Assembly (NCBI RefSeq): GCF_009707865.1
Contig: NZ_WMBA01000040.1
Coordinates: 1-64,000, forward strand
Length of the DNA: 64,000 nucleotides
From: Amycolatopsis pithecellobii
GTDB taxonomy: Bacteria > Actinomycetota > Actinomycetes > Mycobacteriales > Pseudonocardiaceae
Direction of reading: 5' to 3'
How positions within the stretch are numbered: the first letter of the stretch is position 1; each line of letters opens with the position of its first letter. Below the pieces are notes generated by a model. That model worked only from the letters and a program-made list of their open reading frames with translations. It searched no databases and had not been told where the DNA came from. Of this stretch, positions 17,778 to 29,260 are shown piece by piece. The position numbers and the translations under genes are program-made.

Positions 17778-17819
17778 GAGCGGGCGACGGGAATCGAACC
17801 CGCGTAGCCAGTTTGGAAG
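17778..17819. repeat. attL, 42-bp direct repeat of the tRNA-Gly 3' part
   Basis: Identical over 42 bp to the attR copy. Read on the minus strand it runs from the anticodon loop to the T-arm and acceptor end of tRNA-Gly, but the 5' half of the tRNA is absent, so this is the displaced chromosomal 3' end. Beyond the core it reads ...GCTCTC on the minus strand and lacks an encoded CCA, unlike the attR side. Confidence 0.95.
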
Positions 17820-18365: not shown

Positions 18366-19430
18366 ATGGAGAACGGTGACAAGATCGAGAGCTTCAAGGC
18401 TTGGGCCAATAGTCAGACGACGGGATCCGCTAGCCTAGGCAACTCTGGCGCTGTGATCAAAGACGGACGACGCGTACGCAAAACAGTTACGTTATCGGCT
18501 TACGGGAACCCCAAGACTGGAGCCGTTCGCAAGCGCGAGCTTCGGTTTCGAACGTTTGAGAAGGCCCCGGACGCGCCTGAGGTCGATTTTGTCGCCAGCG
18601 GCGCCAAGAACACCTGGTGGTGTGAAAACGAAGAAATTGACCGCCTGCTTGGTTTCCTCACTGCAGAATTTAAGGAGCCGGGTCGCTACAGCGTTATCGA
18701 CCGGCAGTCACCGCTCGCAATGTTCACAGACGCACTCAACGGCAACCAAATGGAACTGAGCGCGGTCGCTAAGGTGCTGGCCGAGGCCGGGCATGCGGCG
18801 CGCATAATTGAATTCCTCACTACATCCGCTGCGGGCGTTTCGGCTGCGGAGCTAGCGGTTATTGCGAAGAGGCGGAAGACTGTCGAGGAGCTTGCCAGGT
18901 TAGCGGGTGATCCGAACGTTACCGAAACTGATGTTCAACGCCTTATTGAAGGAGAATATTGGCTTTTTGGCGGTCAATACGTCGGGGTGGCGAAACGATC
19001 GATCCTCCCTCTTGATCAGTATGATATCCCGTTGCTCGACGCGAACGGCACGCTACACCTTGTAGAACTGAAGGGGCCAGTTGTACCTAGGCTGGTGCGA
19101 CGTCATCGGAACCACGTGATCGTCGGCAACGAGGTCCATGAGGCGGTTTCTCAAGCTATGAACTATTTGAGATCGTTGGATGAGCTTGGTGCGGGCATAA
19201 CTTCGTATTATCGCAATGAATTATCATTCGATTTCGATTTGCGGAGAGTATTTGCGACGGTGGTGATCGGTCATCCAACCCATGTCTCGGAGATAGACCG
19301 ACGAACAATCCGGCAAACCTTCAGATCTTACAATGCACACTTGAGTAGGGTCAATGTCCTAACTTACGATGACCTAATCGAGGTCGCTGACCGTTCGCTC
19401 GCCTTTCAAGAACGCGACAAGCGCTATTGA
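18366..19430 (+). CDS. Shedu-family nuclease (DUF4263, SduA-like)
   Basis: 354 residues. The C-terminal third has the PD-(D/E)xK nuclease layout of Shedu/DUF4263: IEGEYWLFGGQY near residue 196, then DIPLLDANGTLHLVELKGP with the acidic residue at 225 and E234-x-K236, and a later EAVSQAMNYL glutamine helix. Shedu proteins are known single-gene anti-phage nucleases. The N-terminal two thirds is a variable sensing region. Start: ATG two codons inside a GTG, with AGG upstream. Codon use is much more AT-rich than the chromosome. The TauD-like and HEPN/zinc-ribbon genes follow closely on the same strand, so it heads a three-gene operon. Family assignment is by motif and general resemblance. Confidence 0.75.
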   Translation: MENGDKIESFKAWANSQTTGSASLGNSGAVIKDGRRVRKTVTLSAYGNPKTGAVRKRELRFRTFEKAPDAPEVDFVASGAKNTWWCENEEIDRLLGFLTAEFKEPGRYSVIDRQSPLAMFTDALNGNQMELSAVAKVLAEAGHAARIIEFLTTSAAGVSAAELAVIAKRRKTVEELARLAGDPNVTETDVQRLIEGEYWLFGGQYVGVAKRSILPLDQYDIPLLDANGTLHLVELKGPVVPRLVRRHRNHVIVGNEVHEAVSQAMNYLRSLDELGAGITSYYRNELSFDFDLRRVFATVVIGHPTHVSEIDRRTIRQTFRSYNAHLSRVNVLTYDDLIEVADRSLAFQERDKRY

Positions 19431-19456
19431 GCGGCATAGTTTGGAGTGGAGGCCGA

Positions 19457-20053
19457 GTGTCTGAGATCGAAAACGTTAAACGTGCTGTGGCATTGGCAGG
19501 CTATGCTGTTGTGGGCGATTCAGACATAGCTGATTCGGTTCTGTCTTCGTTCACTTCCGTCTCTCCTCCGCAGGTGCTAGACGCTCGACCGCCGGATTCG
19601 AGCTGGAGTCTGTCGGGCACTTATGGGTATAACGAGTTTCCATGGCATACCGATGGTGCTGTTTCGACGGTGGTGCCGAGATGGTTCGCATTGCGCGCAA
19701 TCGAGATAAATGAAGAGACAGCAACAGAGTTGCTAGAGCCTTCGAAGCTATTGCTTAAGAGGCTGAAGTCTGTCGTCCTTAAGGTTAGGAATCGTCGGGG
19801 TCTAGCTAGATATTTCCCTGCGGTTCTACCGTTATCGAACTGTTCTTATCAACTTCGATGGGATCCTCGGATATGTACACCGAATGAACAAGGGTTACTG
19901 GATGAAATTGATGACCTCGATCCAATGTTCCGGGTGGACTGGAGAGTGGGTCTTACCCTTTTTGTTGACAACTATCGGCTTTTGCATAGACGCCCTAGGG
20001 TTTCGTCAGGAAGTCGTCGACGTCTCGAGCGAACATATATATGGAGTATCTGA
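19457..20053 (+). CDS. Short TauD/TfdA-like Fe(II)/2-oxoglutarate dioxygenase
   Basis: 198 residues, shorter than the usual 270-300. The 2-His-1-carboxylate iron triad is readable: H64-x-D66 in YNEFPWHTDGA and H177 in DNYRLLHRRP, with R192 (RRLERTYIW) as the likely 2-oxoglutarate-binding arginine. That is the TauD/gamma-butyrobetaine hydroxylase pattern (including DNxRxLHxR). The substrate is unknown. Start: GTG with GGAGG 4 nt before it; a TTG 30 nt upstream also is open. It lies 26 bp after the Shedu-like gene, and its stop overlaps the next start. A hydroxylase inside a nuclease operon is unusual; modification of a nucleic acid or a partner protein is a possibility without direct evidence. 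Confidence 0.72.
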   Translation: MSEIENVKRAVALAGYAVVGDSDIADSVLSSFTSVSPPQVLDARPPDSSWSLSGTYGYNEFPWHTDGAVSTVVPRWFALRAIEINEETATELLEPSKLLLKRLKSVVLKVRNRRGLARYFPAVLPLSNCSYQLRWDPRICTPNEQGLLDEIDDLDPMFRVDWRVGLTLFVDNYRLLHRRPRVSSGSRRRLERTYIWSI

Positions 20054-20940
20054 TGTGGGACTATGCGACACTCTATGGGAAGGCGTCTCTCTACTTCAAT
20101 CGCGCCCAAAGTCACCCCCGCTTTGATGATGACGAATTTGGTATATGGGCACTTTTAGGCCTGGAATTTCTTTTACGAACACCTTTGGCAAAAGTACACC
20201 CGAGTCTTCTTGCCGCCCCTGACGGGAACAGTATCCTGCACTCCGTCGGAATCCTTATTGATGGCGACCTGAAGTCAATTCCTACTCACACTGTTATTTC
20301 TCGACTTCCGCACATTGTCCCTGACTTCGATTCGGGCAGGGTGCGTGACGCAACGGTGCTAATGAATCTTAGAAACTCGGAGCTTCATACAGGTGAGGCA
20401 GCAATTGCCAACGCCCCTATCAGTCTCTGGTTGCCACGCTTCTTGCGTGTGTCGGAGGTAGTCTGCAGCTTCCTTGAAATTGACGTAGAGTCGTTACTTG
20501 GCGAGTCCGTAGTTGCTCACGCTCGCAGCTTGGTGGACGAGCAAGACAAGAAAACTCAGCATGAAGTTGGAAAGAAGCTCAATCAAGCGTCAACATTTTT
20601 TGAGAACCTGCAGAAACCGGAAATTGATGCTAGGCGTGACGCGCTGCCCAAATTTGTACTCGATGGAAGATTTGTTGAATGTCCGACATGTGAGTCGCAA
20701 GCTATTCTTCGCACCGAGTATGTGCGTACTAGCGGTGAGCGAATCGAAGATGACATTATATACACTGATAGAATTCTGGTGGCTAAGTCGTTTGAATGTT
20801 CGGTCTGTGGCCTACAGCTAGAGGACACTCGGGAGACGGCAACCGCAGGCCTTCCTCAGCAATTTGTAGAGACTACGGAGGAAAGTCTAGATGAAAGATA
20901 TGCCGAGGCTGTTGTTGATTGGGATTACGGAAATGATTAA
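20053..20940 (+). CDS. HEPN-like protein with C-terminal zinc ribbon
   Basis: 295 residues. The N-terminal ~145 residues are helical and contain LRNSELH (R107-x4-H112), the R-x4-H signature of HEPN ribonucleases, placed late in the domain as in other HEPN proteins. The C-terminus holds CPTC (210-213) and CSVC (249-252), a four-cysteine zinc ribbon likely to bind nucleic acid. No close family is recognised. The ATG overlaps the TauD-like stop (TGATG) with GGAG 6 nt upstream, so translation is coupled. HEPN plus Zn ribbon suggests an RNA-cleaving or RNA-binding effector working with the Shedu-like nuclease; this is inference. Confidence 0.65.
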   Translation: MWDYATLYGKASLYFNRAQSHPRFDDDEFGIWALLGLEFLLRTPLAKVHPSLLAAPDGNSILHSVGILIDGDLKSIPTHTVISRLPHIVPDFDSGRVRDATVLMNLRNSELHTGEAAIANAPISLWLPRFLRVSEVVCSFLEIDVESLLGESVVAHARSLVDEQDKKTQHEVGKKLNQASTFFENLQKPEIDARRDALPKFVLDGRFVECPTCESQAILRTEYVRTSGERIEDDIIYTDRILVAKSFECSVCGLQLEDTRETATAGLPQQFVETTEESLDERYAEAVVDWDYGND

Positions 20941-20952
20941 TGTCAAACGGTA

Positions 20953-21204
20953 TTAGTTCGAATTTGTCCGGTCGGCGCCAAGCCTTGCAAGGAAAAGCGA
21001 TAAGGAACCGCCAAGCGCTTCTATTACATGCCGCAGTTCAACAATGTCAAGTCGTCGCTGGCCGGACTCGTACTTGCTGACGAAAGACTGGGGTACTCCG
21101 AGGGCGTCGGCTACCTGAACTTGAGTCAATCGTGCCTCGCGCCGCAGTTGGCGTAGTAGGTCGCAGACCTGTTGGTACTCGGCCGAGTAGATCGACTTCT
21201 CCAC
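20953..21204 (-). CDS. XRE-family HTH regulator
   Basis: An 83-residue single-domain helix-turn-helix protein: LRREARLTQVQVADALGVPQ SFVSKYESGQRRLD, the classic XRE/Cro fold, then a short helix EALGGSLSLFLARLG. The GTG start (MEKSIYSAEYQ) is preferred to a TTG 36 nt upstream because this N-terminus is typical of the family; no strong ribosome site is seen for either. It converges on the HEPN gene with a 12-bp gap. An ATATCCC-N5-GGGATAT palindrome stands just upstream. It may control itself, the cargo operon or the divergent GntR gene. Confidence 0.8.
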   Translation of the reverse strand: MEKSIYSAEYQQVCDLLRQLRREARLTQVQVADALGVPQSFVSKYESGQRRLDIVELRHVIEALGGSLSLFLARLGADRTNSN

Positions 21205-21231
21205 GCAGTTAGGCCACCGTAGTTCTTGCAG

Positions 21232-21250
21232 ATATCCCAAGATGGGATAT
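21232..21250. promoter_or_regulatory. Palindromic operator candidate between XRE and GntR genes
   Basis: ATATCCC-AAGAT-GGGATAT, perfect 7-bp arms, begins 28 bp before the XRE start and lies 200 bp before the GntR start. It suits a dimeric HTH repressor. The remaining ~200 bp up to the GntR gene shows no other feature. Confidence 0.45.
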
Positions 21251-21832: not shown

Positions 21833-22468
21833 ATGTCTGAGCTGAGTCACCTCGAATCGTGGTTCTCACACGATCGCCTGGCCCCCTACCGTGCCGCGAC
21901 CAACAGCCGCAGGGACGCGATGACCCTCTACGAGTGGAACGCGGAGGTGTCGGCGGCGTTCTGGCGCACGTTGGGGCACGTCGAGGTGCTTCTGCGTAAC
22001 GCGCTGCATCGTGAGCTGACGGCCTGGTCGCGAGAGCGGTATGGCACCGATCGGTGGTATGCGGCGATCGAGCCGACCGTGAGTCAGCAGACGCGCAAGG
22101 ACATCCGGGAAGCCATCCGCCGGGGCACGCGCAACGGGCGCGCCGAAACACCGGGGCGGGTGGTTGCGGAGCTGAATCTCGGGTTCTGGCGGTTCTTGCT
22201 CGCCCGTCGCTATGACGGCACGCTGTGGCGCTTCTGCATGTACCGCGCCTTCCCCGGCAAGCGCCGTGCCGATGTCGAGCGCGCGGTATCGACGTTGCAT
22301 GTGCTGCGCAACCGCATCGGGCATCACGAGCCGATTCACAACCGGCCGCTGGATGAGCTGCTTGGGCTCTCGCTGGAAGTCGCGGGCTGGATCGACACCG
22401 ATGCTCGGGACTGGATCGCGGCCGGCGACCTCACGCCGGGACTGCTCGCACAGCGAAGTGGGGTGTAG
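21833..22468 (+). CDS. Abi-family (Abi_2/HEPN-type) protein
   Basis: 211 residues resembling Abi_2-type abortive-infection proteins. It starts with LAPYRAATNSRRDAMTLYEW and has AAFWRTLGHVEVLLRNALH in the middle and VLRNRIGHHEPIHNRPLDE toward the C-terminus; RNRIGH is the R-x4-H motif of the HEPN superfamily. Such proteins (AbiD/AbiF relatives) limit phage growth in other bacteria, probably through RNA. ATG start with a weak ribosome site. It lies alone, followed 24 bp later by the HD gene. Chromosome-like GC suggests it is a standing element gene, not part of the AT-rich cargo. Confidence 0.78.
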   Translation: MSELSHLESWFSHDRLAPYRAATNSRRDAMTLYEWNAEVSAAFWRTLGHVEVLLRNALHRELTAWSRERYGTDRWYAAIEPTVSQQTRKDIREAIRRGTRNGRAETPGRVVAELNLGFWRFLLARRYDGTLWRFCMYRAFPGKRRADVERAVSTLHVLRNRIGHHEPIHNRPLDELLGLSLEVAGWIDTDARDWIAAGDLTPGLLAQRSGV

Positions 22469-25057: not shown

Positions 25058-25884
25058 ATGGCCAAGTCTATTCGCCGTTCGCGTGGAGCGCGACGGCTCG
25101 ATGTGATGGAAATCTGGCACGATCCGAAACGGTCGTGGTTCGTGCTCATCGTCGGCGTCCTCGTACGCTGATCTGGCGGAACATCCTGCTTGCCGGGGAA
25201 CCGGGGGCGGGAAAGTCCGTGGGGCTCAACAACATCGTTGCGCATGGAGCCTTGTGTCCGGACCTGTCGCTGTGGTTGTTCGATGGCAAGCAGGTCGAAC
25301 TCGGGCTGTGGCGTGACATCGCTGACCTGTTCGTCGGCCCGGACATCGAAGCCGCCTTGCTGGCGCTGGAACAGCTCCAAGCGGAGATGGACCGCCGATA
25401 CCGCGAACTCGACCGAGTGCGGCGTCGCAAGATCGACCGCCGCGACCCGATCGACGTGATCATGGTCGTGATCGACGAACTGGCCCTGTTCTCCGCCACC
25501 ATGGGCGGCAAGGACCAGCAGGAGAAGTTCGTGCGACTGCTGCGGGATCTCGTCGCACGTGGCCGCGCGGCCGGGGTCATCGTCGTCGCCGCCACGCAAC
25601 GTCCGTCCGCCGACATCATTCCGACATCGCTGCGGGACTTGTTCGGCTATCGCATGGCGTACCGCTGCACAACTGATTCGTCGTCCGACATCATTCTCGG
25701 ACGCGGCTGGGCCAGCCAGGGTTACGACGCGTCCACTATCGCCCCGCAGGAACGGGGAGTGGCGCTGCTGCTGGCCGAGGGCGGCGTGCCTCGCCGCATG
25801 AAGACCGCCTACCTGACCGACACGCAGATCTATTCCCTCGTCGACTACGCACGAGAACTGCGCAGCCGGAAAACCACTGCCTGA
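25058..25884 (+). pseudogene. FtsK/SpoIIIE (TraB-like) DNA translocase with internal deletion
   Basis: A strong start (GGAGGAG then ATG) opens the normal AICE translocase N-terminus, MAKSIRRSRGARRLDVMEIW then HDPKRSWFVLIVGVLV, but the frame ends in TGA at 25169-25171. Immediately after, in another frame, the ATPase part runs on: LIWRNILLAGEPGAGKSVGL (Walker A GEPGAGKS), VIMVVIDELALF (Walker B) and VAATQRPSADIIPTSLRDLF, ending normally. The membrane helices and linker expected between these parts (well over 100 residues) are missing, and the frame is broken. A GTG at 25135 could start an ATPase-only 249-residue protein, but no ribosome site supports it. Double-stranded DNA transfer should therefore be lost. 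Confidence 0.82.
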
Positions 25885-26184: not shown

Positions 26185-27686
26185 GTGACCGTCTCGACCA
26201 TGACTCCGAGCCCCACCACCCAAGCCGTGGTGGGGTTGGGAGCCCTTGCCGAGGCGCAGATCGTGGCTCGGGTCGCTCAGCCCGGCTACCGGTGGTGGCT
26301 CGCGCACGTCATGCCCGCCGCCGCGTGCTCACGGCCCGTCCGGCTCCGGCTCGAAGCCACTTGGGCGACGGCATGACCGAGCGGCCGACCGACGACATGC
26401 CCGACGGCCGGTTGTACGTCGCCTGTAAGAACCGGCGCGCCTCGGTCTGCCCTGCGTGCGCGGAGACCTATCGGGCCGACACGTATCACCTCGTCAAGGC
26501 GGGACTCGTGGGCGGCAAGGGCGTGCCCGCGACCGTGACGGAGCATCCGTGCTTCTTCGTCACGCTCACCGCGCCTGCCTTCGGCACAGTGCACGCGCGC
26601 GTGGTCGGGGCCAACGGTGAGGTTCGGCCGTGCCGTCCCCGGCGGTACGCCCCGCTGTGCCTGCATGGCCGTCCGACAGAGTGCCGGGTCCAGCACGGCG
26701 AGGATGACCCGTGCGTGAGTGAGCCGATCTGCCGGGACTGCTACGACTACGACGCTCAAGCCGTCTGGAACTTCCACGCGGGGGAGTTGTGGCGCCGGAC
26801 CGTCATCACGCTCAACCGGTACCTGGTCGCTGCGGCGAAGGACCGGTGCGTCCGCGTCCGGCTCTCGTACGCAAAGGTCGCCGAGTACCAACGGCGCGGG
26901 ACTGTGCACTTCCACGCGTTGATCAGGCTTGATGGCGTCAACCCGGATGATCCGGATACCATCATTCAGCCGGACGCTTCGATCACGCCGGAGCTGCTGA
27001 GCAGCCTTATCGACACTGCTGCGACCGTCACGCGCTTCACCACGGCGTCCCACCCCTGGTACCGCATCGGCTGGACCCTGACTTGGGGCACACAGACCGA
27101 CATCCGTCGGGTCCGCCTCAACGCCGGTGATCACGACGACCACGGCGCTCTCACGTCGACCGCCGTGGCGGCGTACCTCGCCAAGTACGCCACCAAAGCC
27201 ACCGAGGAAGCCGGGCACGTATCGAGGAAGTTGACCCAGCAGACCGCCAATGTCTACGCCGACCAGGACACTCACCAAGCCCGGCAACTCACGGCCTGCT
27301 GGTCCCTCGGCCAACGCCCCTGGTACTACACGTCAGAAGCCCAGCGCGAAGCCTGGGACGAAGGCTGGGGCCGTCTCCAGAAATGGGCACACATGCTCGG
27401 CTTCGGCGGCCACTTCTCCACCAAAAGCCGCCGCTACTCCACGACACTGACAGCCCTGCGCGCGGTCCGAAAAGCGTTCCAGCGCGGCGAAAACCACCCG
27501 GAGGACACCCCGCCGGCCGATCTCGACCAGTTCGGCGACGAAGCCGCGGTAACGCTCAACTGGATCTTCGACGGCGTCGGCTGGCTCACCGTCGGCGATG
27601 CCGCTTTAGCCAATTCGGCTGCCGCGAAGGCCCGCGAGCGCAGGCGCGTCGCGCGCGAAGAGATGGAGGAAATCATGGCCAGTTAG
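26185..27686 (+). pseudogene. RepSA-like replication initiator, frameshifted near its 5' end
   Basis: The first 63 codons read the usual RepSA N-terminus (EAQIVARVAQPGYRWWLAHV, then MPAAACSRPVRL) before ending at TGA around 26376. The rest continues in a different frame without a proper start: SHLGDGMTERPTDDMPDGRL, CKNRRASVCPACAETYRADT, then the initiator core including YQRRGTVHFHALIRLDG with the HxH of rolling-circle replication proteins. Switching frame needs a net -1 step between about 26335 and 26375, so one base appears lost (or two gained). No slippery heptamer is visible. A sequencing error cannot be excluded; otherwise autonomous replication is lost. Confidence 0.78.
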
Positions 27687-27690
27687 CGAG

Positions 27691-27915
27691 GTGGCGGCGC
27701 TGAAAACCTATGTGGGAGTTGAGGAAGCGGCTGCGCTTCTCAAGACGTCAGTCCGATTTGTACGGCGCCTGATCGCGGAGCGCCGGATCACGTTCTATCG
27801 CGTCGGGCGGCACGTCCGTCTGGCTGTCGAGGACCTCGAATCGTTCGTGGAAGCCGGAAAGGTCGAGCCGATCGTTCGATCGGGTCGGCGCAACGGGCTC
27901 GAAAGGTTTGTGTAA
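27691..27915 (+). CDS. xis: Excisionase, MerR-like HTH (helix-turn-helix 17)
   Basis: 74 residues: LKTYVGVEEAAALLKTSVRF, RRLIAERRITFYRVGRHVRL, VEDLESFVEAG, the typical DNA-binding excisionase of AICEs, directing integrase to excision. GTG start 5 nt after the initiator gene's stop. Its stop TAA overlaps the int start (TAATG), so Xis and Int are coupled. Confidence 0.88.
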   Translation: MAALKTYVGVEEAAALLKTSVRFVRRLIAERRITFYRVGRHVRLAVEDLESFVEAGKVEPIVRSGRRNGLERFV

Positions 27916-29096
27916 TGGCCAACAAGAAAGGACATCGCCGGTTCGGTAGCGTGCGGCAACGGAAATCGGGTCGGTGGCAAGCACGTTATATCGGGCCGGA
28001 CGGTCTGGTACACGTCGCACCGCACACGTTCCCCGGCAAACGGGACGCGGAGCAATGGTTGTCCGTCGTGGAAGCGGAGATCATCCGGGGTGACTGGATG
28101 AACCCCGAACTCGGCCGGGTCCCGTTCTCCGAGTTCGGAGCGAACTGGATCAGGCAGCGGAAGGTGTCGCAGCGGACGCGGGAAGAGCACGCGAGCGTCT
28201 GGCGGAACCACATCGAGCCGTTCCTGGGGCGGTTCCGGGTCAATGAGGTCACTCCCGAGATCATCCGGGCATGGCGGGCTGACCTGCTTGACAAGGGGCG
28301 GTCCGAGGATCGGACGGCCAAGGCGTACCGTCTCGCCCGTTCGATGTTCGCGACGGCGGTGGATGACGGGCGCATCAAGCGCAACCCCTGCCGGATCAAG
28401 GGTGCTGACCAGCATCGCACGCCCGAGCGGCCGCACGCGTCTGTCGATGAGGTCTACAGGCTGGCCGATGTGGTGCCAGGGCGGTACCGGTTCCTCGTGC
28501 TGCTCGCGGCCTTCTCGGGCCTGCGTTGGGGTGAGTTGATCGCCTTGCGGCGTCGGGACATCGATCGGAAGACGATGATCGTCCGGGTCGCCCGGCGAGT
28601 CGCTCAGCTGAAGGACGGCGAGATGAGCATCGGCCCTACCAAGTCGGCGGCCGGGGTGCGAACGGTCGCGCTGCCCAAGTTCTTGGCTGAGGATCTGACG
28701 CACCACCTAGCGGAGTTCGCCGAGGGCGGGCGTGACGGCCTGCTGTTCGTCGGCAAGCGCGGCGGCGTCCTGCGGCGGGGCAACTTTCACCGCGAGACCG
28801 GCTGGACCAAGACGGTGGTCAAGGCAGGGTTGCCGAAGGGCTTCCACTTTCATGACTTGCGTCATACCGGCAACCAGATGGCGGCGGAGGCAGGGGCGAC
28901 CACGCGTGAGCTGATGCAGCGGATGGGGCAGAGTTCCGTTCGGGCGGCATTGATCTACCAGCACGCGACCAGCGTCCGTGACCAGCAGATTGCCGACGAG
29001 CTGAATGCTCGTGTGGAGCGCCACCGCCAGGGGGCATCGGAAGAGGACGATGGCCCGGAGGAGGGGACTGCTGGTGTGCTGGCTCCCGTTGGCTAA
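27915..29096 (+). CDS. int: Tyrosine site-specific integrase of the AICE
   Basis: 393 residues with an N-terminal SAM-like arm-binding region (RRFGSVRQRKSGRWQARYIG), a core-binding domain (LGRFRVNEVTPEIIRAWRAD) and the catalytic domain. Catalytic residues: R in FSGLRWGELIALR, the HDLRHTGNQ box, and Y in AALIYQHAT. Intact. It catalyses integration at tRNA-Gly and, with Xis, excision. Its stop codon lies inside the first right-hand arm repeat, and attR follows about 90 bp later. Confidence 0.95.
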   Translation: MANKKGHRRFGSVRQRKSGRWQARYIGPDGLVHVAPHTFPGKRDAEQWLSVVEAEIIRGDWMNPELGRVPFSEFGANWIRQRKVSQRTREEHASVWRNHIEPFLGRFRVNEVTPEIIRAWRADLLDKGRSEDRTAKAYRLARSMFATAVDDGRIKRNPCRIKGADQHRTPERPHASVDEVYRLADVVPGRYRFLVLLAAFSGLRWGELIALRRRDIDRKTMIVRVARRVAQLKDGEMSIGPTKSAAGVRTVALPKFLAEDLTHHLAEFAEGGRDGLLFVGKRGGVLRRGNFHRETGWTKTVVKAGLPKGFHFHDLRHTGNQMAAEAGATTRELMQRMGQSSVRAALIYQHATSVRDQQIADELNARVERHRQGASEEDDGPEEGTAGVLAPVG

Positions 29097-29114: not shown

Positions 29115-29188
29115 AATGACACGAGCGACGGTCCCCACGGAAGGGTTCCGCCGCCTGGATTGTGCCTCTGACCGGCCGTTGTGCACTG

Positions 29189-29230
29189 GAGCGGGCGACG
29201 GGAATCGAACCCGCGTAGCCAGTTTGGAAG
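29189..29230. repeat. attR, 42-bp direct repeat inside tRNA-Gly
   Basis: Identical to attL. The right copy completes the tRNA: the part above 29230 is chromosomal 5' half, the repeat supplies the 3' half from the element. Immediately outside the core the element side has TGG (CCA on the tRNA strand), where attL has a different base. Confidence 0.95.
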
Positions 29231-29260
29231 ACTGGGGCTCTACCATTGAGCTACGCCCGC
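29190..29260 (-). tRNA. tRNA-Gly (anticodon TCC)
   Basis: Cloverleaf readable on the minus strand: acceptor GCGGGCG/CGCCCGC, D-arm GCTCAATGGTAGAGC, anticodon arm CCAGTCTTCCAAACTGG with anticodon TCC, T-arm CGGGTTCGATTCCCG. Discriminator T, followed by an encoded CCA at 29187-29189. It is the AICE integration site and is functional because the element restores its 3' end. Confidence 0.95.

Follow-up and report, generated by a model that had tools for sequence, protein, structure and literature searches.

A strictly paired TauD-family oxygenase gene and putative HEPN ribonuclease gene next to a probably independent Shedu nuclease gene in Amycolatopsis pithecellobii

HEPN ribonucleases are among the common effectors of bacterial immunity; the known silencing enzyme that partners them is a nucleotidyltransferase. 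In HEPN-MNT modules (HepT/MntA, type VII toxin-antitoxin), the HEPN toxin is reported to be silenced by the addition of nucleotides, a reaction carried out by the enzyme from the adjacent gene (PMC7641770, PMC11586414). The same anatomy, consisting of two adjacent genes for a HEPN protein of ribonuclease (RNase) type and a small enzyme, is found in a 64,000-nucleotide stretch of DNA from Amycolatopsis pithecellobii (contig NZ_WMBA01000040.1; hereafter the window), where genes for a Shedu nuclease (gene 1), a TauD-family oxygenase (gene 2) and a protein with HEPN motifs and a zinc knuckle (gene 3) follow one another within an integrative element. Whereas the partner enzyme of HEPN-MNT is a nucleotidyltransferase, that of the pair formed by genes 2 and 3 is an Fe(II)/2-oxoglutarate (2OG) oxygenase; moreover, only the pair has a zinc knuckle on its HEPN protein, and silencing, which is described for HEPN-MNT, is here a prediction. 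By this comparison HEPN-MNT is the closest working analogue of the pair, which appears to be undescribed and would belong to a known kind, that of enzyme-controlled HEPN modules. The terms dioxygenase, hydroxylase, 2-oxoglutarate and TauD do not occur in the available text of PMC3710099, and no description of a TauD/dioxygenase-HEPN pair was found in the literature on bacterial immunity, anti-phage systems, defense islands or Gabija, as judged by titles and the beginnings of abstracts among the papers listed, with preprints and most subscription papers outside this coverage.

Genes 2 (19457–20053, + strand, 198 aa) and 3 (20053–20940, + strand, 295 aa) are a strict pair that constitutes one unit. 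In the window they overlap by a single nucleotide (TGATG) and are preceded by gene 1 (18366–19430, + strand, 354 aa) at a distance of 26 bp, so that these coordinates confirm the three same-strand genes and the spacing reported in an initial annotation of the locus. Longer open reading frames (ORFs) could start at GTG 18360, TTG 19427 and ATG 20041; the starts given above are preferred because a GGAGG element lies just 5' of GTG 19457 and a homologue (L002) begins at a methionine that matches position 20053. Other genomes were scanned with the motif W[AS][SA]LALE[LF]L, derived from pair-borne gene 3 proteins, which under-samples both pairs that lack it and a solo clade of gene 3 relatives, and the best 80 of 88 relatives were taken as loci. 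A same-strand TauD-family ORF is located directly 5' of gene 3 in 79 of the 80, including one locus with a partial TauD gene containing runs of N (L057) and another whose TauD gene has an in-frame stop (L081); at the single exception (L092), gene 3 is split into two ORFs and no TauD gene was found. The pair is also present at all eight plasmid loci (L008–L015), in one of which (L014) the TauD gene is unannotated, and, in a search of the window's taxonomic order, in four of five nearer relatives (excluding the window itself and the distant L007), the fifth (L002) being uninformative, with a gene 3 that starts 197 bases from the contig end. The coupling of the two genes that had been proposed is thus upheld by their recurrence, by their usual overlap and by their correlated divergence.

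Overlaps of 1–14 nt join genes 2 and 3 in 75 of 88 pairs with usable starts, 4 nt (53 pairs) and 8 nt (20 pairs) being the most frequent values. Pairwise identities of the two proteins are correlated with r = 0.93 (4184 comparisons across 92 loci), a coefficient that ignores shared species history, and the TauD protein diverges faster than its partner, gene 3 identities of 90–97% corresponding to a mean TauD identity of 77.5%; on the basis of these sequences, such a difference might be as expected for a partner-specific control subunit. In a gene 3 tree that includes about half of the genome-scan loci, one branch with 100/100 support separates 50 pair-borne rows from 14 solo rows, and in the TauD tree the window, L012 and L014 have long branches. 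At a further locus (L149) gene 3 is broken and the TauD gene intact, in agreement with an enzyme that controls an effector.

By its sequence, gene 2 is a small, minimal enzyme of the TauD/TfdA clavaminate-synthase-like class, closest to the clavaminate-synthase-like amino-acid oxygenases: it matches Pfam TauD above the family cut-off (4.9e-9, 36.9 bits; cut-off 27) and contains both a metal-binding triad (H64-x-D66...H177) and a 2OG-binding arginine (R188), which substantiates its first description as an Fe(II)/2OG dioxygenase of TauD type. These catalytic residues are intact across the 92 pair loci (H in 90, D/E in 90, distal H in 89 and R in 89). When compared with the PDB, a profile built from 77 homologues has clavaminate synthase 1 as its best match (9.5e-18), followed by lysine, arginine and asparagine hydroxylases/oxygenases and others, with which it shares the H-x-D/E...H metal site, the C-terminal arginine and the region of the 'RYDP' aspartate. 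The latter, conserved as D in 90/92 loci, aligns by residue numbering with clavaminate synthase D233, which we take to be a substrate contact. A confident AlphaFold2 model is β-rich, with a predicted local distance difference test score (pLDDT) of 85.3 and a predicted template modelling score (pTM) of 0.83. In contrast to most of these best matches, which are 324–358 aa long, members of the gene 2 family have about 200–230 aa; the first 66 positions of the gene 2 profile are unaligned to clavaminate synthase 1, and in this comparison the gene 2 family is the only one linked to an RNase-type gene. Pfam and NCBIfam scans detected no domain other than TauD at useful scores, and PADLOC-DB 2.0.0 (2023) contains no family that matches either gene 2 or gene 3 at E-values up to 1.

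The HEPN signature, according to the accessible part of PMC3710099, is R-x4-6-H with a polar residue after the arginine, and an upstream E-x3-[KR] motif is typical of many HEPN families. Gene 3 contains both elements, E38-x3-R42 and R107-N108-x3-H112, and is by motif probably a HEPN protein with an RNase-like domain; the R, N and H residues are invariant in 92/92 pair homologues, with the spacing R-N-x3-H in 88/88 measured pairs, and E-x3-[KR] is likewise found in 92/92 (E in all 92; K in 64 and R in 28). A C-terminal four-cysteine zinc knuckle follows (CPTC at 210, CSVC at 249), whose two CxxC elements are kept in 90–91 of the 92. The R107-x4-H112 motif and two CxxC knuckles that had been noted in the window therefore hold at the level of motifs and are conserved across the pair homologues, and all residues singled out beforehand in the three proteins, including E234-x-K236 of gene 1, are found where they had been placed. 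Profile searches support the initial annotation for gene 1 (SduA_C) and gene 2 (TauD); for gene 3, no Pfam or NCBIfam model exceeds its cut-off and no HEPN family is present among the Pfam matches listed. Profile searches of gene 3 against the PDB returned no relevant solved structure, and domain scans recognised no ligand-binding domain in it; scattered weak matches to zinc ribbons were discarded as uninformative.

Gene 1 is, from its sequence, a Shedu nuclease, as it had been called: it matches Pfam SduA_C (1.8e-20, 74.2 bits; cut-off 27) and PADLOC SduA (1.2e-60), and its C-terminal PD-(D/E)xK core includes E234-x-K236. The likeness to Shedu (SduA) is a property of gene 1, and at no other locus was the pair found beside a Shedu gene. 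A Pfam SduA_C search of 49 whole pair-bearing genomes, covering all but roughly 31 of the 80 loci of the genome scan, identified the domain in four genomes (L038, L087, L098 and L102; five matches), none of them within the stretch fetched around the pair; this was judged by coordinates and contig ranges and, in the case of L087, by the lack of a match to a sensitive local profile. No match to the window-type Shedu was found in 95 gene 3 loci (ORFs of at least 150 aa, flanks of unequal length) with a narrow profile, derived from relatives of the window's gene, that missed the divergent Shedu of L133. Of 41 genes lying closely 5' of the pair, the one in the window alone matched SduA_C; for 30 downstream neighbours the domain is not among the 25 of 33 Pfam families listed, so that a single match could be hidden in the remainder. 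In the window's order, relatives of the Shedu gene occur in 16 of 298 genomes and those of gene 3 in 7 of 298; both are present in two, the window's own and another (G021) in which they are located on different contigs. Conversely, the Shedu loci fetched from a further 15 genomes of this order (about 1.5 kb on each side, seven examined more widely) contain neither gene 2 nor gene 3. The sole other adjacency of a Shedu gene and a HEPN/zinc-knuckle gene that was seen is at L133:4670-6830, where a divergent Shedu gene (SduA_C, 2.1e-7) and a solo gene 3 relative overlap at the 3' end of the former and there is no dioxygenase.

A recurring Shedu-dioxygenase-HEPN triplet was accordingly rejected, the triplet being seen only in the window: the neighbourhood survey shows that genes 2 and 3 recur together without Shedu beside them, and the three-part Shedu/dioxygenase/HEPN system postulated in the initial annotation is not borne out, SduA_C being absent from the fetched flanks of the pair in the 49 genomes and the pair from the fetched Shedu loci in the 15. 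Shedu is a neighbour and probably an independent, separate defence gene, and nucleases of the broad Shedu-like kind do sit beside HEPN/zinc-knuckle genes. These genomic data shift the likely target of the dioxygenase from Shedu to its HEPN partner.

The settings of the pair are mobile and often rich in defence genes. As counted by similarity to one example of each kind, with near-copies included and no random control, neighbours in the 95 loci include TrlF (9), Gabija A and B (5), a GHKL-ATPase nuclease (7) and a PDC-S19 type (3), with type I restriction beside the pair in L051 and L053. Plasmid examples are found among the TrlF and Gabija loci too, and to our knowledge neither system has a dioxygenase or a HEPN protein of gene 3 type as a known part. 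A TrlF-family ATPase gene lies 5' of the dioxygenase gene in L013, L028, L033, L040, L042, L048 and L152 and in most of them ends 8–9 bp ahead of it, which may indicate a larger operon. In L072, L073, L075, L076, L079, L080 and L082, a fusion of a GHKL-ATPase with a PD-(D/E)xK-like nuclease is encoded 24–61 bp 3' of the pair; the one member scanned had no PADLOC match at 1e-5. These proteins match the window Shedu profile weakly (4.3e-5 to 7e-4) and were considered as a link to Shedu at the seven loci, which was rejected, the match being loose and Pfam assigning them HATPase_c_3 together with a sub-threshold HSDR_N_2.

Hosts in the gene 3 tree belong to the Pseudomonadota, Actinomycetota, Verrucomicrobiota and Planctomycetota, in addition to one Micavibrio metagenome-assembled genome (MAG; Bdellovibrionota). 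Many copies of the pair are carried on long contigs that look chromosomal, and gene 3 matches are found on 45 plasmid records, 31 of which are typed as conjugative. A TauD query also returned 45 plasmid records, in 27 of which gene 3 or its remains were seen directly, its presence in the other 18 being deduced from identical coordinates or from the genus tally of gene 3 among plasmids, which is consistent with these cases. By the gene 3 query of the same locus, 23 of the 45 carry gene 3, with that of JX469828 in two pieces; a further 19 records, all from A. tumefaciens, have the TauD gene at identical coordinates, and gene 3 was observed in two of them and assumed for the remaining 17. It was likewise observed in one of two S. 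anulatus records and assumed for the other. In Rhizobium sp. 007, an intact TauD gene is accompanied by a gene 3 in the form of two ORFs. L012, an Acinetobacter wuhouensis plasmid, carries a divergent copy of the pair as well as macrolide-resistance genes. A solo HEPN/zinc-knuckle family without a neighbouring dioxygenase is present on Streptomyces plasmids (L140–L147), 28 of its 49 matched records being from Streptomyces. Such solo genes, from plasmids and genomes of actinomycetes, share E38, P50, R107, N108 and H112 with the pair-borne group (22/22 aligned rows), from which they differ by the absence of a dioxygenase and by forming a separate clade; we know of no described system to which they belong.

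In the window, genes 1–3 occupy the left end of an 11.4-kb element bounded by perfect 42-bp direct repeats. The left attachment repeat (17778–17819) was found by repeat comparison to be identical to the right one (29189–29230), which is located inside tRNA-Gly(TCC) (29187–29260); the direct repeat takes in the 3' portion of a tRNA gene, as in actinomycete integrative/conjugative elements. Toward the right end lie ORFs named by eye as an FtsK/SpoIIIE-like transfer ATPase (25135–25884, + strand), a RepSA-like replication protein (26292–27686, + strand) and a tyrosine-integrase-like protein (27915–29096, + strand), so that the repeats bracket genes 1–3 together with the integrase-like ORF and the cargo position first assigned to the genes is confirmed. 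Their separate AT-rich composition is equally evident: genes 1, 2 and 3 have GC contents of 0.539, 0.497 and 0.490 in a window whose overall value is 0.673, and their GC contents at third codon positions (GC3) are 0.58, 0.46 and 0.47, against 0.81 for the integrase ORF and 0.83 for the replication ORF. Two further ORFs of this region were identified by eye. A short one (20953–21240, − strand), convergent with gene 3, is XRE-like with a helix-turn-helix and could be a regulator or an antitoxin remnant; a small one (21833–22468, + strand) with an RNRIGHHE motif resembles HEPN proteins of Abi_2/AbiD-F type and is a possible second abortive-infection gene of the element.

Together, these observations suggest that genes 2 and 3 constitute a self-contained two-gene module, transferred horizontally and found on integrative elements as well as on plasmids and chromosomes, often close to defence genes, and that HEPN activity within it is controlled by hydroxylation, a reading that we adopt tentatively, with confidence slightly short of even. 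The gene overlap, the strict pairing and the faster divergence of the enzyme favour action of gene 2 on gene 3. Gene 3 would be the effector, its HEPN domain cutting RNA and its zinc knuckle recognising RNA or the partner; gene 2 would most likely hydroxylate gene 3 and keep the HEPN enzyme silent, or else bind gene 3 in a hydroxylation-dependent manner. Infection or loss of the element would then upset the control by gene 2 and free the ribonuclease, bringing either the phage or its host cell to a halt. Such silencing would resemble that of HEPN toxins by MNT enzymes, which add nucleotides. Within this scheme, the RNase activity, the target of hydroxylation, the direction of the control and the role against phages are predictions. 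A more specific form of it, which we consider possible and rather doubtful, would have the Fe(II)/2OG hydroxylase control the HEPN ribonuclease by hydroxylating it, possibly at an active-site or zinc-knuckle residue, the trigger being the status of oxygen, iron or 2OG or the blocking of the enzyme by a phage; this would amount to a class of its own among immune and toxin-antitoxin modules, with immune control by protein or RNA hydroxylation, in a mobile add-on found beside Gabija, TrlF, Shedu and restriction systems in several phyla.

Several results weigh against control of gene 3 by gene 2 in an anti-phage module, or fail to strengthen the case for it. Comparison of the gene 3 profile with the DUF4145 HEPN family gave an equivocal P = 0.03, in the right register and with two of nine rows derived from the wrong strand; the identity correlation carries no correction for species history; and the TauD tree is only partly congruent with that of gene 3, keeping the actinobacterial clade (15/15) and breaking up two other gene 3 clades. 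At L081, a single MAG, the TauD gene is interrupted and gene 3 intact, the opposite of what is expected of an antitoxin, and the solo clade of gene 3 relatives lives without a dioxygenase, so that an effector of this type need not have one. Furthermore, the nearest solved relatives of gene 2 use small-molecule substrates, and the scan of a phage collection gave no match and that of viral contigs only one locus.

The substrates of those relatives lead to other possible roles for the dioxygenase. It could mark self on RNA, for example on a tRNA modification that bears an amino acid, with the HEPN/zinc-knuckle RNase cutting unmarked or phage-altered RNA; relatives of gene 2 hydroxylate amino acids, the aspartate aligned with clavaminate synthase D233 is kept (90/92), gene 3 has a zinc knuckle, and there are precedents on both sides, TYW5 being a 2OG hydroxylase of an amino-acid side chain on tRNA and PrrC and RloC being HEPN tRNA nucleases. 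We nevertheless regard such marking as unlikely, considering that gene 2 has no domain beyond TauD at useful scores and that its faster evolution would be odd for an enzyme acting on a conserved tRNA. Alternatively, the enzyme might make a small hydroxylated amino acid, or report the Fe/2OG/O2 state, which the HEPN protein would sense as an alarm or an all-clear. That its solved relatives include L-Arg, L-Lys and Asn hydroxylases/oxygenases fits this idea, whose probability we place lower again, since the overlap of the genes and their correlated divergence are more suggestive of contact between the proteins than of a signal that diffuses, and gene 3 has no recognised ligand-binding domain.

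Silencing of a toxin by its partner would also serve a toxin-antitoxin pair that solely stabilises mobile elements and has no anti-phage role, as the 45 plasmid records with gene 3 (31 conjugative) and the integrative element of the window could indicate; with many copies on chromosomal-looking long contigs and several beside defence genes, this explanation is distinctly improbable. The least probable by our estimate, and very improbable in itself, is that Shedu, dioxygenase and HEPN protein make up a single defence system of three parts, with the dioxygenase serving to license Shedu or to mark self. Its basis consists of the 26-bp gap and the low GC content common to the window's three genes, the overlap of a solo gene 3 relative with the Shedu gene of L133 and the weak similarity to the Shedu profile of the GHKL-ATPase nuclease 3' of seven pairs; opposed to these are the absence of SduA_C from the fetched pair flanks in 49/49 searched genomes, four of which have one elsewhere, the 95 gene 3 loci without a match to the window's Shedu sequence, the 15 other genomes without a pair at their Shedu loci, and the 41 upstream neighbours, of which only the window's own is Shedu.

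In summary, if hydroxylation by gene 2 does control the HEPN protein encoded by gene 3, HEPN effectors would have a second silencing partner, chemically unrelated to the nucleotidyltransferase, so that modification-controlled HEPN effectors would represent a general design and hydroxylation would be brought into the control of prokaryotic immunity.

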